IMG/VR virus record: IMGVR_UViG_3300034092_000507
Span: 1 to 39,668 of that record
Length of the DNA stretch: 39,668 nucleotides
Origin: a virus
Reading direction: 5' to 3' (one strand)
The position numbers and the translations under genes are program-made. Of the stretch, positions 1,677-25,607 are shown piece by piece. The stretch's first letter is position 1, and each line of letters begins with the position of its first letter. A model generated the notes under the pieces. The model did not search any database. It saw only the letters and a program-made list of their open reading frames with translations, and was not told the DNA's origin.

Positions 1677-3344
1677 TTATAGTACAACCCAACGACTACC
1701 AGTAGGAACTGTTACAGTAACTCCGCTAGAGATTGTTACTGCTCCAACAGAACTAGCAGAATATCCGCTAGGAATTGTATAGCTTGTTCCGATTGTCATA
1801 TTGTTTAATACAAGACCATTCGTTGCTACGATTGCAGTAGCTTTTAACTCACCAGTGCTTGGTTTGTATAGTAACTTAGCATTGGATGTAAAGATACTTG
1901 CTGCTGTTCCAGTTGTAGCATTTAGGAAAGCAGGATAGACATCGGTAGAAGTAGAAGTATCGTTAGAGATTGCTGATCCACCAACAGAAGCCCAAGCAGT
2001 ACCGTTATAGCCTTCAAACTCATTCGTGGTGGAGTTAAATCGTAACTTACCAGCAACTCCTGCGGGTCTCTCGCCTGTCGTTCCAGCAGGAATCTTAATG
2101 GCTGATGTAGCAGTAAACGATGGGTTAGCATCGTCATACTTAACGGTGTCAGCATCATAGGCTTGTACCGTGCTGCCGATGTCAGAATCGACTACAACAT
2201 TACTACCACCATTCTGAAGTGTACCAGTAAAGTTAGCAGTTACATCGTCATACTTAGCAGTATCTGCATCATAGGCTTGAACATTAGTTCCAATAGCTAA
2301 ACCTAAAGCAGTTCTTGCATCAGATGCAGTCGTAGAACCAGTACCACCGTTAGCGATAGGCAGAGTACCAGTAATATCCGCAGTGTTGATCTCAATCGCA
2401 TCCCACGAAGTATTTGTACCGTCAGTTTTAAGATACTTTCCTGCGTTACCAGTTTGAGAAGGAGTGTAACTAGCAGCTAGTGTAGCAGATGCCGCAGCAG
2501 CAGTTGCTGAGTTTGCTGCGGAAGTAGCACTATTTGCAGCATTGGTAGCTGAGGTAGACGCAGAAGATGCAGAATTACTAGCGTTGGTCGCTGAAGTAGA
2601 TGCTGAAGATGCACTGTTCGCTGCATTAGTTTCTGAAGTAGCTGCATTGCTTGCAGAAGTGGACGCTGCAGATGCTGAGGAAGCCGCATTACTTGCTGAA
2701 GTACTGGCTGAAGAAGCTGAAGAAGCTGCGTTAGATGCTGAAGTTGATGCTGCAGATGCAGAAGCAGCAGCGTTTGTCTCAGCAGTCTCTGCGTTAGTTT
2801 CAGCAGTCTCTGCATTTGTCTCTGCTAACTCTGCAGCAGTCTGAGCTGTCTGAGCAGCAGTTGCAGAATTAGCAGCATTGGTTGCAGAAGTAGCTGCAGC
2901 ACTAGCTGAATTAGAAGCATTGGTAGCGGATGTAGCAGCGTTAGATGCGGAGGTAGACGCAGAAGAAGCACTATTCGATGCGTTTGTTGCAGCAGTCTCT
3001 GCGTTAGTTTCGGCTGTTTCAGCGTTGGTTTCAGCGGTTTCAGCAGCAAGTTGAGCAGCTTCAGCAGCAGCCTGTGCAGCCTCGGCAGCAGCTTGAGCAG
3101 TTTCAGCATTAGTCTCTGCTGTTTCCGCATTAGTTTCTGCAGTTTCAGCGTTAGTCTCTGCAGTCTCTGCGTTGGTCTCTGCTAACTCTGCTGCAGCTTG
3201 CGCTGTCTCAGCAGCAGCTTGAGCAGCCTCTGCAGCAATCTGAGCAGCAACGGCTGCGTCTTTAGCAGCTAGAGCTAATAGTACTTCACTTGCAGCATCC
3301 TGGGTAGCGTCTCCTGCACCACCTGCTCCACGATAAATTGCCAA
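1677..3344 (-). CDS. long tail fibre with alanine-rich coiled-coil shaft
   Basis: 555 residues, starting MAIYRGAGGAGDATQDAASE. Residues about 25-295 are almost wholly Ala/Glu/Asn/Ser/Thr repeats (AETNAETAETN, SAASTSASNAAT), typical of a trimeric coiled-coil shaft. Then comes a linker, GNAGKYLKTDGTNTSW, a repeated AYDADTxKYDD unit and a short beta-rich end (TGERPAGVAGKLRFN). The opening matches the N-terminal region of T7-group and cyanophage tail fibre proteins that attach to the tail. It lies directly downstream of the coat gene and its terminator. The repeats make the opposite strand look coding as well, which is a composition effect. Confidence 0.85.
   Translation of the reverse strand: MAIYRGAGGAGDATQDAASEVLLALAAKDAAVAAQIAAEAAQAAAETAQAAAELAETNAETAETNAETAETNAETAETNAETAQAAAEAAQAAAEAAQLAAETAETNAETAETNAETAATNASNSASSASTSASNAATSATNASNSASAAATSATNAANSATAAQTAQTAAELAETNAETAETNAETAETNAAASASAASTSASNAASSASSASTSASNAASSASAASTSASNAATSETNAANSASSASTSATNASNSASSASTSATNAANSATSAANSATAAAASATLAASYTPSQTGNAGKYLKTDGTNTSWDAIEINTADITGTLPIANGGTGSTTASDARTALGLAIGTNVQAYDADTAKYDDVTANFTGTLQNGGSNVVVDSDIGSTVQAYDADTVKYDDANPSFTATSAIKIPAGTTGERPAGVAGKLRFNSTTNEFEGYNGTAWASVGGSAISNDTSTSTDVYPAFLNATTGTAASIFTSNAKLLYKPSTGELKATAIVATNGLVLNNMTIGTSYTIPSGYSASSVGAVTISSGVTVTVPTGSRWVVL
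2470..3260. repeat. short in-frame tandem repeats coding the fibre shaft
   Basis: The plus strand shows many imperfect copies of units such as gttagtttcagcagtctctg and gaagtagatgctgaagatgc, spaced in multiples of three and encoding the AETN and SASN units of the fibre shaft. Unit number can change by slippage or unequal recombination, which would alter fibre length. The units are coding and have no CRISPR-like unique spacers. Confidence 0.8.
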
Positions 3345-11867: not shown

Positions 11868-12515
11868 ATGATTAAGTTATCTAAAACAAGTAAACTGGAC
11901 GGTATTCTTTCATGGTCATTACAGGCATTAGACACTTGCCCAGGATCAAAGGATAGTACAGGTACTCTAGTACCAGCTTGTCAAGGCTGCTATGCAACTA
12001 CAGGTAACTATAGGTTTGCTAATGTTAAGAAACCTAGAGAATTTAATCGGGAAGACTGGAAACGTGACGATTGGATCGATGACATGGTACAGTCTTTAGA
12101 AAATTCTAGATACTTTCGATGGTTTGATAGTGGAGATATGTACGACGTAAGACTAGCATATAAGATTCTACAGATTATGGAATTAACCCCACATTGTAAA
12201 CACTGGTTACCCACTAGAATGTATAAATTTGACAAATTTAAACACGCTATAACACGTATGCAAAGCTTACCCAATGTAGTGGTACGATTCAGTAGTGATA
12301 GCGTTACTGGTGAGGTTATAGAGGGTTTAAACACTAGTACTATTATCAGTCACGAGTCCCAATTAAAGAATGTTGACGGTATCTGTCAAGCTTACAAGCA
12401 CGAGGGCAAATGCAATGGCTGTCGAGCATGTTGGGATAAAAGTGTTAAGGTCATTGGCTATCAAGCTCATGGGGTTAAAATGGCTAAGGTTATTAAGATT
12501 GTTGCAATGCAGTAA
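11868..12515 (+). CDS. GP88-family phage protein, Cys-rich
   Basis: 215 residues. It shows the pattern I associate with the Gene product 88 family: TCPGSKDSTGTLVPACQGCYATTGNYRF near residues 24-50, a W-rich DWKRDDWIDDMV, RWFDSGDMYD, LPTRMYKF, VVRFSSDSVTGE and a Cys cluster at the end (CQAYKHEGKCNGCRACWD). The Cys spacing would allow binding of zinc or an iron-sulphur cluster. Found in early regions of diverse phages, activity unknown. It starts 2 bases after the preceding stop, behind ggagggttaagg. Confidence 0.75.
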   Translation: MIKLSKTSKLDGILSWSLQALDTCPGSKDSTGTLVPACQGCYATTGNYRFANVKKPREFNREDWKRDDWIDDMVQSLENSRYFRWFDSGDMYDVRLAYKILQIMELTPHCKHWLPTRMYKFDKFKHAITRMQSLPNVVVRFSSDSVTGEVIEGLNTSTIISHESQLKNVDGICQAYKHEGKCNGCRACWDKSVKVIGYQAHGVKMAKVIKIVAMQ

Positions 12516-13935: not shown

Positions 13936-14100
13936 ATGGAAGATAACTACGAAGAAGAAATGCACTATCACTTTGTCGTGCAACATGCAGTTGATGCTGC
14001 TGGACGATATGGTATTGATATTGTCTTACAGGATATCATCGATGCATGGAATTTTAAACTAAAGGAACACGATACTACTGCGGAGTTTACCTATGAATAA
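13936..14100 (+). CDS. small hypothetical protein 8
   Basis: 54 residues (MEDNYEEEMHYHFVVQHAVD), acidic, helical (YGIDIVLQDIIDAWNFKL). Preceded by ctaaggag seven bases before the ATG and by promoter P5. The last 8 bases overlap the next gene. Confidence 0.65.
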   Translation: MEDNYEEEMHYHFVVQHAVDAAGRYGIDIVLQDIIDAWNFKLKEHDTTAEFTYE

Positions 14101-14332
14101 ACTTGTACAAGAAGCACCTTATCATCCAGGCTATGAAGATGCAGTCATTGAACCAGCATTCGCATACAAAGGAGTAGACCCTGCTAAGATGATCTGGAAA
14201 CCTAAGCCTTTAAGCAGTGATGATATAGATAATTTATTTGGTATTTGTGCACTAAATCCAACAGTAGTTTTAACTAATGAGCAGTGCCATGAAATTACAA
14301 GAGCAATTGAGCAAAGGCATGGTATCAAATGA
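14093..14332 (+). CDS. modular early protein, LSSDDI / AIEQRHGIK type
   Basis: 79 residues. The end, PLSSDDIDNLF followed by CHEITRAIEQRHGIK, is a variant of the module in the genes at 14546, 14803 and 15171. The start (EAPYHPGYEDAVIEPAFAYK) is unlike theirs. ATG at 14093 overlaps the upstream gene; the stop overlaps the next start (ATGA). Function of the module is unknown. Confidence 0.72.
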   Translation: MNKLVQEAPYHPGYEDAVIEPAFAYKGVDPAKMIWKPKPLSSDDIDNLFGICALNPTVVLTNEQCHEITRAIEQRHGIK

Positions 14333-14553
14333 ACGCACACGAATTAGCACTCCATCTGCAGGTCGAGTCTAGTCAAGCGGAATATGGCTATGTTGTCGAT
14401 GATTGGAAATTGCTAGACGATGCAGCCACTATGCTACGCCAACAAGCAGACCGAATAGCGGAGTTGGAAAAGCGAATAGTAGCTTTAACAATGAATTTAA
14501 ATACAAAAGCAATTAAGGTTTCTGAATTAGAAAGGCAATTAAAAAATGTATAA
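14329..14553 (+). CDS. coiled-coil protein in the modular cluster
   Basis: 74 residues (MNAHELALHLQVESSQAEYG). Residues 30-74 form a heptad-patterned coiled coil (LLDDAATMLRQQADRIAELE then KRIVALTMNLNTKAIKVSEL). AATMLRQQADRIAELE is a phrase common in small phage proteins of unknown role. It starts by ATGA overlap and overlaps the next gene by 8 bases. Confidence 0.7.
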   Translation: MNAHELALHLQVESSQAEYGYVVDDWKLLDDAATMLRQQADRIAELEKRIVALTMNLNTKAIKVSELERQLKNV

Positions 14554-14806
14554 AACATTTGCAGAATGGAAGAACGGAAATTGGCTTGAGGATGGTGAAC
14601 CAAGAAAAGAAGCCTATACAAAAGACGAGTTGTTGCTTGTTGAAATGGGCTGGAAGTATGGGTTTGATGCTGGTAAGGCACAAACAAAGCCATTAAGTGA
14701 TGAGGAAATAGGCAATCTTTGGATTGAGCATAGCTACGGAGTGCCACTATCTAATATTTCGTTTGAGTTTGCTAGAGCAATAGAAGAAAGGCATGGAATT
14801 AAATGA
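14546..14806 (+). CDS. modular early protein, LSDEEI / AIEERHGIK type
   Basis: 86 residues. Starts MYKTFAEWKNGNWLEDGEPR; residues about 50-86 are KPLSDEEIGNLWIEHSYG, then FEFARAIEERHGIK, the shared module. Ends by ATGA overlap with the next paralogue. At the DNA level its tail (tttgctagagcaata, aaaggcatgg) repeats those of the next two genes. Confidence 0.75.
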   Translation: MYKTFAEWKNGNWLEDGEPRKEAYTKDELLLVEMGWKYGFDAGKAQTKPLSDEEIGNLWIEHSYGVPLSNISFEFARAIEERHGIK

Positions 14807-14824
14807 ACAATGAACCAGTAGCGT
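14801..14824 (+). repeat. 24-base direct repeat, copy 1 (modular paralogues)
   Basis: Bases 14801-14824 are identical to 15169-15192, covering the ATGA junction and the MNNEPVA codons of two adjacent genes. Further shared words are ccactctatacccatccag (about 14908 and 15259), ctaacagatgaggaaata (15061 and 15282) and tttgctagagcaata (14769, 15136 and 15360). Confidence 0.85.
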
Positions 14825-15174
14825 GGATGGATGAAATAAATACTTTTGTGCTTGATGAAGATTACAAACAGTTTCCTAAATCTTTACAGAATGGAATGAT
14901 TCCACTCTATACCCATCCAGTAAATCCAAAGTATGACCCTGAAACTGGAGAGCCTTTGATTGATGGCTACCCATTGTTTTCAGGACTTCCCCATCCAGTA
15001 AAAGATAAGCCACATCCTAAATGCGATGAAGCGTGTATGTATTTATGTCAGATGCGTGAACTAACAGATGAGGAAATAACTGAAATATTTGATACAACTT
15101 TTGAGGTGCGTGATTATGAAGATTCGTTTATTAAGTTTGCTAGAGCAATACTAAGAAAGGCACAAGAGAAATGA
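14803..15174 (+). CDS. modular early protein, MNNEPVA / LYTHP / LTDEEI
   Basis: 123 residues with all four modules in order: MNNEPVAWM, IPLYTHPVNP, a unique insert (KYDPETGEPLIDGYPLFSGL, then HPKCDEACMYLCQMR with Cys-rich spacing), RELTDEEITEIF and FIKFARAILRKAQEK. The insert is absent from its neighbour at 15171. The protein family is frequent in phages and prophages of beta-proteobacteria as far as I recall; no function is known to me. ATGA overlaps on both sides. Confidence 0.78.
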   Translation: MNNEPVAWMDEINTFVLDEDYKQFPKSLQNGMIPLYTHPVNPKYDPETGEPLIDGYPLFSGLPHPVKDKPHPKCDEACMYLCQMRELTDEEITEIFDTTFEVRDYEDSFIKFARAILRKAQEK

Positions 15175-15192
15175 ACAATGAACCAGTAGCGT
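15169..15192 (+). repeat. 24-base direct repeat, copy 2
   Basis: Second exact copy of 14801-14824. The two copies bracket one complete paralogue, so recombination between them would delete or duplicate a whole gene without breaking a frame. Confidence 0.85.
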
Positions 15193-15395
15193 ATGTAAAC
15201 AGTATGTGCAATGACTACATTGATTGGAAGGCAGACCCTATGAGTATTGATGGTCAGCCACTCTATACCCATCCAGCAGAACTAACAGATGAGGAAATAG
15301 GACAAATATGGAAAGATTGTATGGAATCGCCATATATGCAAATAAGTAATCCAGTAGGTTTTGCTAGAGCAATACTAAGAAAGGCATGGGATTAA
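15171..15395 (+). CDS. modular early protein, short form with frame-switched end
   Basis: 74 residues: MNNEPVAYVNSMCNDYIDWK, QPLYTHPAELTDEEIGQIWK, then GFARAILRKAWD. LYTHP and LTDEEI are fused with no insert. The last bases (aaaggcatgggattaaataa) would encode RHGIK-type ending of the paralogues at 14332 and 14806 if read in another frame; in this frame they give KAWD and stop. This looks like a DNA crossover between two kinds of module end. Confidence 0.75.
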   Translation: MNNEPVAYVNSMCNDYIDWKADPMSIDGQPLYTHPAELTDEEIGQIWKDCMESPYMQISNPVGFARAILRKAWD

Positions 15396-15463
15396 ATAAA
15401 CCTATCGGGAAATACTGCTAAGAATGTAGGCAATATCAGTAGAAATTTACAGAACGGGAAAGA

Positions 15464-23526: not shown

Positions 23527-23703
23527 ATGAATCGTACTCTTACACTGCCAGAGTTAAAAGAACGGTTGAAGAGTTTAGATGAAGTAATGCTTCTGGAGCT
23601 ACTCGACATAGCTTCAGAAGACTTAGTAGAAACCTTTAGCGACACTATCGAAAACAACTATAACAGACTTCTAAAAGAAGTAGATTGGGAAGAAACTGAA
23701 TGA
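23527..23703 (+). CDS. small acidic protein upstream of ribonucleotide reductase
   Basis: 58 residues from ATG at 23527 (MNRTLTLPELKERLKSLDEV), one base after the upstream stop. Three acidic helices. Stop overlaps the reductase start (ATGA). Confidence 0.65.
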   Translation: MNRTLTLPELKERLKSLDEVMLLELLDIASEDLVETFSDTIENNYNRLLKEVDWEETE

Positions 23704-25607
23704 CAGAATTTAACACACCGTTTAGTACCGTAGGATATATTACATACAAAAGGACATATGCTCGTCGATTGAATGAAGCAGATCCTGGTAGTCCTACAGA
23801 AGAGTTTGAGGACACAGTTAATCGTGTCGTCGCAGCAGCAAACAATCAGTTGAACTGTGATTTCACAGACGCTGAGAAGAAACGCTTGAAGAAGTACTTG
23901 ATGGAATTGAAAGGCACTGTAGCTGGACGATTCCTGTGGCAAATGGGAACTGAAACGGTAGGTCGTTTAGGTCTTGCTAGTCTACAGAACTGTGCGTTCA
24001 CTGTCGTAGATCAACCAGTTCGTCCGTTCACATGGGCAATGGATCTGTTGATGCTAGGTTCAGGAGTAGGCTACAACATCCAGCGTGAGCATGTGTCTAA
24101 GCTTCCTCCAGTTAACGAAAGCTTTAAGACTCCTACACGAATTGATACGAATGATGCAGACTTCATTGTGCCTGACTCTCGTGAAGGATGGGTTAAGCTC
24201 CTCGGTAAGACACTTAAGGCAGCCTTCTTAGCTAACACTGCTACGACCTTTACCTATTCAACGAAGCTAGTTCGTGGTAAGGGTTCTCCTATCAAGGGCT
24301 TTGGTGGTACTGCTTCGGGTGCTGAAGATTTATGTTGGGGTATTGAGAAGATCGGAGAGATCCTAGAGAAGCGAGCTGGTCGTCAGTTACGCTCTATCGA
24401 CTGCCTCGACATCATGAACATTATCGGTGCAATTGTAGTAGCAGGTAATGTAAGACGCTCTGCTCAGATTGCTATTGGTGATCCTGATGATGTTGAATAC
24501 TTACTGGCTAAACGGTGGGACATGGGTAACATTCCTTCGTGGAGAGCTATGTCTAATAACAGTGTAGTATGCAACGACTTCAAAGATCTCCATGAGTATT
24601 TCTGGGATGGGTATGAAGGCAAGGGCGAGCCTTATGGTTTAATTAACCTGAAGCTCAGCAGGAAGATTGGAAGACTGGGAGAGACTCAGTATCCAGATCC
24701 TAAGGTGATGGGTTACAATCCTTGTGCTGAGCAGTCCTTAGCTCCGTATGAGACTTGTTGTTTGGCTGAGATATATCTGCCTAATGTGTCGAGTAAGTCT
24801 GAGTTTATCGACATCTGTAAGCTGCTATATCGTATCAACAAACACAGTCTAGCTTTACCCTGCCATCTCGAAGAGACTGCAGATATTGTACATAGTAATA
24901 TGCGGATGGGCATCGGAGTTACTGGTGTCTTGCAAGCAAGTGAAGAACAACGTAGCTGGTTATCAGAAGCTTACACAGAATTACGAGCTTTCGATAAGGA
25001 ATACAGTGCTAAGCATGGCTTCCCAGAGTCAGTAAAACTTACCACTGTTAAACCTTCAGGTACATTGTCGTTACTTCCAGGTGTAACTTCTGGTTGCCAT
25101 CCTGCGTATTCTCGGTACATGATTCGTAGGATTCGTATTGCAGCAGACCACGCTCTCGTACAAGTCTGTCGTGATCACGGTTATCCTGTGGAGTATCAGC
25201 GTAACTTTGATGGTAGTGAAGATCACAGTACAATGGTAGTTAGCTTCCCATTCTGCTATCCAGAGGGAACAAAGTTAGCTGCTGAGATGACTGCGATTGA
25301 TCAGTTGGAAGTGGTGAAGTGGTTGCAAGCTCATTGGTCAGACAATAGTGTTTCCTGTACAGTGTATTATCGTAAGGAAGAACTACCTGAGATCAAGAAG
25401 TACCTTGCTAAGAACTATAAGAACAATCATAAGTCCTTGTCGTTCTTACTACACAATGAGCATGGATTCCACCAAGCACCCTTGGAGGAGATTACTAAAG
25501 AGCAGTATGAAGAACTAGTTGCTAAGACTCGTTTGATTACTAAGATTGATGAAGCAAGCTTTGACGGAGGGGACGAGTGCGCCAGTGGTGCATGTCCAGT
25601 TAAATGA
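23700..25607 (+). CDS. class II (B12-dependent) ribonucleotide triphosphate reductase
   Basis: 635 residues. All five cysteines of the Lactobacillus leichmannii-type monomeric enzyme are present with the right spacing: C98 (SLQNC), C342 in NPCAEQ with E344 (thiyl radical site), C353 eleven residues later, and C627/C632 in CASGACPVK at the end, five apart. Other family segments: GSGVGYNIQREHV, IVVAGNVRRSAQI and VKPSGTLSLLPGV. It makes deoxyribonucleotides using adenosylcobalamin, so no oxygen is needed. At about 100 residues shorter than the 739-residue bacterial enzyme, its insertions look trimmed. Likely feeds the polymerase in the same transcript. Confidence 0.93.
   Translation: MTEFNTPFSTVGYITYKRTYARRLNEADPGSPTEEFEDTVNRVVAAANNQLNCDFTDAEKKRLKKYLMELKGTVAGRFLWQMGTETVGRLGLASLQNCAFTVVDQPVRPFTWAMDLLMLGSGVGYNIQREHVSKLPPVNESFKTPTRIDTNDADFIVPDSREGWVKLLGKTLKAAFLANTATTFTYSTKLVRGKGSPIKGFGGTASGAEDLCWGIEKIGEILEKRAGRQLRSIDCLDIMNIIGAIVVAGNVRRSAQIAIGDPDDVEYLLAKRWDMGNIPSWRAMSNNSVVCNDFKDLHEYFWDGYEGKGEPYGLINLKLSRKIGRLGETQYPDPKVMGYNPCAEQSLAPYETCCLAEIYLPNVSSKSEFIDICKLLYRINKHSLALPCHLEETADIVHSNMRMGIGVTGVLQASEEQRSWLSEAYTELRAFDKEYSAKHGFPESVKLTTVKPSGTLSLLPGVTSGCHPAYSRYMIRRIRIAADHALVQVCRDHGYPVEYQRNFDGSEDHSTMVVSFPFCYPEGTKLAAEMTAIDQLEVVKWLQAHWSDNSVSCTVYYRKEELPEIKKYLAKNYKNNHKSLSFLLHNEHGFHQAPLEEITKEQYEELVAKTRLITKIDEASFDGGDECASGACPVK

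Follow-up and report, generated by a model that had tools for sequence, protein, structure and literature searches.

Phage mosaicism is typically seen at the borders between genes. The locus studied here lies in a 39.7 kb virus record, the whole of which was analysed (hereafter the window), and it raises the question of how a row of small genes comes to share short stretches of protein and DNA in different combinations. We found that freshwater phages bear rows of small early genes assembled from swappable protein pieces. These pieces are joined by near-identical DNA linkers, which probably let otherwise divergent phages trade them into new combinations while the genes stay intact.

An early array of five module genes

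The window belongs to a podovirus-like phage that encodes a primase-helicase, a family A polymerase and an exonuclease, together with a Gp2.5-like single-strand binding/annealing protein and a RusA-like resolvase. The array (14093-15395) consists of five short genes directly upstream of the primase (15464), and its neighbours overlap each other, most commonly as ATGA (Table 1). Elsewhere in the window we noted a GP88/DUF7227 protein gene upstream of the early region (11868-12515, +), a B12-dependent type ribonucleotide reductase (23700-25607, +), a GIY-YIG/NUMOD3 homing-endonuclease-like gene at the window edge (312-842, -) and a large protein with long AETNAETA/SASNAATSA repeats that is tail-fibre-like in appearance (1677-3344, -).

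The original prediction described four genes with common modules. The modules were indeed shared: MNNEPVA and LYTHP are present in genes 4 and 5, L(T/S)DEEI and FARAI in genes 3, 4 and 5, and the LSSDDI and ITRAI of gene 1 are degenerate versions of the latter two. The N motif of gene 1 recurs beside different C slots in contigs L008, L028 and L189. The count of four had to be raised to five; gene 2, which contains a coiled coil (NAHELA...ATMLRQQADRIAELE), is also a module gene. Contig L004 has this array too, but there a different N part stands in gene 2.

The 24-base repeat that had been proposed across two ATGA junctions was found as two exact copies, and we estimate that an exact 24-mer within 3.5 kb would not be expected by chance (about 1e-8). 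A further exact repeat of 27 nt links 15136-15162 with 15360-15386. The last gene had been described as keeping the DNA of the HGIK ending in another frame, and the two stretches concerned were identical at 23 of 25 bases. The frame change is due to a 1-nt offset upstream (ATAGAAG versus ATACTAAG), and the LRKA-type body of gene 5 joins the HGIK-type DNA at a common AAGAAAGGCA; the end of gene 5 looks like a recombinant formed at the junction. At this junction ATGA has become ATAA, and no module gene lies downstream.

Table 1. Genes, linkers and junctions of the early array (window positions)
Feature	Position	Strand	Description
Gene 1	14093-14332	+	EAPYHPGYEDAV-type N part, degenerate C slot (LSSDDI...ITRAIEQRHGIK)
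Gene 2	14329-14553	+	Module gene with a coiled coil (NAHELA...ATMLRQQADRIAELEKR); overlaps gene 1 by ATGA
Gene 3	14546-14806	+	Private N part, then PLSDEEI-core-FARAIEERHGIK
Gene 4	14803-15174	+	EPVA-core-PLYTHP, two linkers, LTDEEI-core-FARAILRKAQEK; multi-part mosaic
Gene 5	15171-15395	+	EPVA-core-PLYTHP, LTDEEI-core-FARAILRKA; end is HGIK-type DNA in a different frame
Start linker, copy 1	14801-14824	+	24-nt exact repeat: stop/start junction and MNNEPVA
Start linker, copy 2	15169-15192	+	24-nt exact repeat
PLYTHP block of gene 4	14902-14919	+	DNA near-invariant between phages
LTDEEI block of gene 4	15061-15078	+	Conserved at the DNA level
21-nt junction	15154-15174	+	AGAAAGGCACAAGAGAAATGA; RKAQEK* plus ATG of gene 5
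HGIK-type junction after gene 3	14784-14808	+	AAGAAAGGCATGGAATTAAATGAAC; reads EERHGIK*
HGIK-type junction DNA after gene 5	15377-15401	+	AAGAAAGGCATGGGATTAAATAAAC; different frame, reads RKAWD*

N and C slots pair almost freely

A scan with gene 4 gathered 29 viral contigs and two more scans many more; these contigs were collected by way of modules or junctions and are non-independent, some of them overlap, and one set of counts was made without deduplication. We defined the N slot as EPVA-core-PLYTHP and the C slot as LTDEEI-core-FARAI. The 193 distinct related proteins fell into 79 N-core and 94 C-core clusters, and the 127 proteins that carry both slots represented 118 combinations. Among N clusters with at least two two-slot proteins, 24 of 27 join two or more C clusters, and 17 of 19 C clusters join different N clusters. 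The N cluster was common to 140 protein pairs, the C cluster to 77 and both to only 11 (1.4 expected at random), so pairing is near-free with a slight excess of inherited pairs. The order of the slots, N then C, was fixed, an arrangement that the original prediction had named as speaking against shuffling, but the content of the slots varied.

Gene 4 illustrates this mosaic structure. Its segments recur at 88-100% in contig sets that largely differ: L006 and L008 have the identical N core, L005, L007, L022 and L025 the identical second linker, and L028 and L029 a C core that is 98% identical, in every case beside other partners. Across the proteins, 18 pairs combined near-identical N-core DNA (at least 97%) with unrelated C cores, and 14 pairs showed the reverse. 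These results bear out the proposal that modules were shuffled between phages with short DNA repeats at their borders. Matches were present in all 31 larger records, generally grouped at one location. Searching gene 4 against phage records by tblastn gave no match. In a genome collection, module genes were present in only two contigs, both from MAGs (L275 and L276, labelled cyanobacterium and Nitrosotalea), and these are probably viral contigs binned into MAGs.

The findings above were extended by a sister phage, L340, recovered through the 21-nt junction. Its replication genes are 74-79% identical to those of the window and it has counterparts of the two genes preceding the array site, where it carries two different module genes and one unrelated ORF. 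Exact matches between the two arrays are limited to linkers, 27-31 nt long. This replaced array, together with the DNA-identical cores next to unrelated partners, supports the suggestion of recent exchange. L004 matches the window at 98% over 1.2 kb from the interior of gene 2 to the primase start; the match breaks near 14422, and the N part of gene 2 and the upstream DNA differ. Assembly chimeras were also considered and set aside: L003, from a different dataset than L004, is 100% identical to the window over 5.5 kb, both contigs repeat window DNA, and a number of further combinations were likewise seen in more than one dataset.

Linker DNA is near-invariant within a gene pool

Four linker elements were near-invariant, silent positions included: PLYTHP, LTDEEI, the start block ATGAACAATGAACCAGTAGCG and the tail TTTGCTAGAGCAATACTAAGAAAGGCACAAGAGAAATGA. 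Within linkers of proteins with unrelated cores, identical residues used the identical codon in 83-91% of cases versus 37-41% expected from codon usage; for the other genes that the contigs share at less than 70% identity, codon agreement was 0.43-0.47. The other genes common to these contigs had a median amino-acid identity of 52%, and in 233 contig pairs whose other genes averaged below 60% identity the tail DNA was 98.3% identical. Short conserved DNA lay between unrelated segments, as is characteristic of boundary sequences.

A second pool, formed by relatives of L031, has the layout MTKDEALRLALEALE-EPVAW-LYTTPPQRKP-LTDEEI-FARAIEAAHGIKE. Its block peptides are the same as or close to those of pool 1 but are written in different codons, GAGCCTGTGGCGTGG in place of GAACCAGTAGCGTGG, and its linker DNA is homogenised within the pool. 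Because each pool spells the conserved peptides in linker codons of its own, there is no universal recombinase site. Cores are exchanged here too, with four same-N pairs, nine same-C pairs and none sharing both. One contig of this pool, L244, contains a gene of 300 aa with three consecutive EPVA-type segments.

Junctions between genes

The RKAQEK end is encoded by AGAAAGGCACAAGAGAAATGA, whose final bases hold the ATG of the next gene. A DNA search located the exact 21-nt junction in at least 120 viral stretches. The fetched contigs contained 255 junction sites with up to four mismatches, compared with 2 in a simple shuffle; 245 of the 255 opened a downstream ORF, and no ORF ended at 28. Mismatches were spread roughly evenly over the codon positions (68/54/72), and the reading frame was constant in 226 of 227, because the linker supplies the stop codon. 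The matches listed from a DNA-only search included 134 new contexts, of which 129 open an ORF; 68 followed a C module, 39 followed unrelated proteins and 17 followed none.

The pool-1 tail was expected to be a strong Shine-Dalgarno sequence, and this was ruled out. Pairing of the junction with the anti-Shine-Dalgarno was weak (-3.3 kcal/mol), 75% of synonymous encodings paired at least as strongly, and only 26% of the start regions of long genes were as weak or weaker. Because the pairing is weak, the role of pool-1 junctions as ribosome-binding sites, which we infer, draws on their position and substitution pattern. In pool 2, HGIKE is encoded by GGCATTAAGGAG ahead of the next start. A C-terminal end that encodes the Shine-Dalgarno sequence of the next gene is clear in pool 2 and in lambdoid Ea22; in the pool of the window the position fits and the Shine-Dalgarno is weak. 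We put this feature forward here; the published definition of the Ead/Ea22-like family does not include it. Judged from these patterns, RKAQEK and EERHGIK seem to arise incidentally from a junction that combines stop, start and ribosome binding, which would explain the frame-switched end of gene 5.

Selection, predicted structure and possible function

Homologous cores gave dN/dS values of 0.15 (N) and 0.21 (C), to be read with the caveat that identity-based clustering favours similar pairs. The cores are constrained, and diversification proceeds by swapping rather than by point mutation. Pfam and PHROGs profile searches returned no match for any of the four genes originally named, and NCBIfam none for gene 4; whole-protein family searches overlook proteins of such modular build. 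In the AlphaFold models of gene 5 (pLDDT 66, pTM 0.32) and gene 4 (pLDDT 71, pTM 0.34), strands adjoin PVA and PLYT, and a pair of helices lies close to LTDEEI and FARAI. This arrangement suggests that a framework may surround the cores, at a model confidence too low for claims about the fold. Foldseek found no significant PDB match and matched uncharacterised phage proteins only. The adjacency to replication genes and the lambdoid counterparts near abc2, erf and gam suggest early accessory, perhaps host-directed roles, and our guess is that the array products act early as accessory factors directed at the host, with the cores setting the target.

Proposed exchange at linkers and its alternatives

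We consider it likely that the locus is an early array of cassettes for small multi-slot proteins, and that homologous exchange at short conserved linkers reassorts it. Within genes, the EPVA, PLYTHP, LTDEEI and FARAI motifs would frame variable cores; since each gene pool has homogenised motif DNA, annealing there would replace a core in frame. Between genes, the linker would comprise the stop codon, the start codon and a presumed ribosome-binding site (AGAAAGGCACAAGAGAAATGA or HGIK type), so that whole genes could be swapped with coupled translation preserved, and RKAQEK or HGIK would be its translation.

Genes 3-5 stand in tandem with their common ends in order, as tandem duplication followed by normal divergence would have it, genes 4 and 5 being duplicates. 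We give this explanation, which the original prediction had set against its own, hardly any weight: genes 4 and 5 have unrelated cores, each of which occurs in other phages at about 91-100% DNA identity with other partners, and the scattered matches of the gene 4 parts are not those of a simple duplication. Short near-invariant DNA blocks on either side of variable segments might also point to a dedicated diversity system (a DGR, a shufflon or integron-like cassettes) working on a specific DNA site, yet linker DNA is pool-specific while the peptides persist. Furthermore, no reverse transcriptase, the hallmark of diversity-generating retroelements, was found in 20 possibly incomplete records, the window included, and the same 20 contained no tyrosine integrase or serine resolvase (shufflon and integron recombinases, PF00589 and PF00239). 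Such a system is very unlikely; with pool-specific codons and none of these enzymes, ordinary homologous exchange within gene pools fits better. Speaking against exchange by annealing or recombination, RecT had no match in the 20 records, RecA was present in one and a Gp2.5-like protein in three.

The C-terminal peptides could alternatively have been selected as protein tags (for stability, localisation or partner binding), their DNA simply being young. The peptide does terminate many unrelated small proteins, in a nearly constant frame and with a weak Shine-Dalgarno, but substitutions are roughly equal over the three codon positions and the junction DNA also stands ahead of start codons at sites without a terminating ORF (the 28 sites, and 17 in the DNA-only search), and we regard the tag explanation as improbable. 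It had also been suggested that the proteins act against defence systems or the host and evolve under diversifying positive selection. The early location adjoining replication genes, the fast turnover of modules and the lambdoid counterparts in the early region alongside abc2, erf or gam favour this, whereas the dN/dS values indicate purifying selection on the cores, contradicting diversifying pressure by point mutation, and profile searches gave no functional family match; we think it unlikely, while a host-directed role without positive selection is possible.

Returning to exchange at linkers, comparison of the sequences established combinatorial pairing, near-invariant linkers, a generally single array location, purifying selection on cores and replacement of the array in a sister phage. 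Annealing or recombination at the linkers presumably produced the mosaics, and the Gp2.5-like annealing and RusA-like proteins of the window phage are candidates to have taken part.

Relation to known systems and significance

The array had been put forward as an undescribed system, which is too strong, as it resembles lambdoid boundary-sequence mosaicism and the modular Ea22/EaA genes of lambda and P22. Conserved boundary sequences were proposed for lambdoid mosaic joints (Clark et al. 2001 on HK620; Susskind and Botstein 1978; both as cited in PMC3029335), where, as in the array, short conserved joint DNA is proposed to steer homologous exchange. Unlike the boundary sequences as presented in that source, the array linkers also lie within genes, where they build two-slot proteins, and more than 100 viral contigs carry one and the same junction. 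A survey of domain mosaicism in phage proteins reports ongoing fragment shuffling (PMC10684548); the parts of it available to us emphasise tail, lysis and replication proteins, expect more mosaicism in proteins of unknown function and, unlike our account of the array, describe no linker mechanism. Our literature text searches found neither the motif nor earlier accounts of coupled tails.

Ead/Ea22-like proteins (PF13935; lambda, P22 and Stx phages; PMC7093339) are, like those of the array, early, accessory and modular, with variable C parts and a common C-terminal end. None of the window array proteins matched PF13935 at E<=10, while lambda and P27 Ea22 matched strongly. The lambdoid Ea22 end AGIRIKGE is encoded by AAAGGAGAGTGA, which in several phages overlies the Shine-Dalgarno sequence of the next gene and is followed immediately by a start codon, with a ribosome-binding site annotated there in the P27 record; in lambda, no gene begins directly after the Ea22 end. 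The records with this overlap at the +GE C-terminus are L277 (348-896, -), L279, L282, L283 and L285. Lambda Ea22 favours lysogeny (PMC7093339). EaA-type proteins (phrog_60 and phrog_660, some with DUF551) share an EPVAYIFKHPAG...IPVYAAP segment with varied flanks in lambdoid, Klebsiella and phi92 phages, the EPVAY...IPVYAAP segment reaching even the large phage phi92. The phrog_60/660 profiles matched pool-2 relatives weakly (E 7e-4 and 1e-3), enterobacterial EaA down to 1e-60 and the window proteins not at all.

The array pattern is broader than originally described. As a tentative extension, which we hold as possible rather than favoured, linkers and stop/ribosome-binding/start junctions may serve as public adaptors through which phage lineages share one pool of short cores and continually assemble early host-directed proteins, with the same logic and other linker DNA in other pools, including lambdoid Ea22/EaA. 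The role of boundary sequences is an old open question because most joints lack them; the array linkers are dense, near-invariant, measurable and also intragenic, and the idea is therefore directly testable here. The common +GE end of Ea22, whose significance was reported as unknown (PMC7093339), gains a simple reading as an overlap with the Shine-Dalgarno sequence of the next gene.
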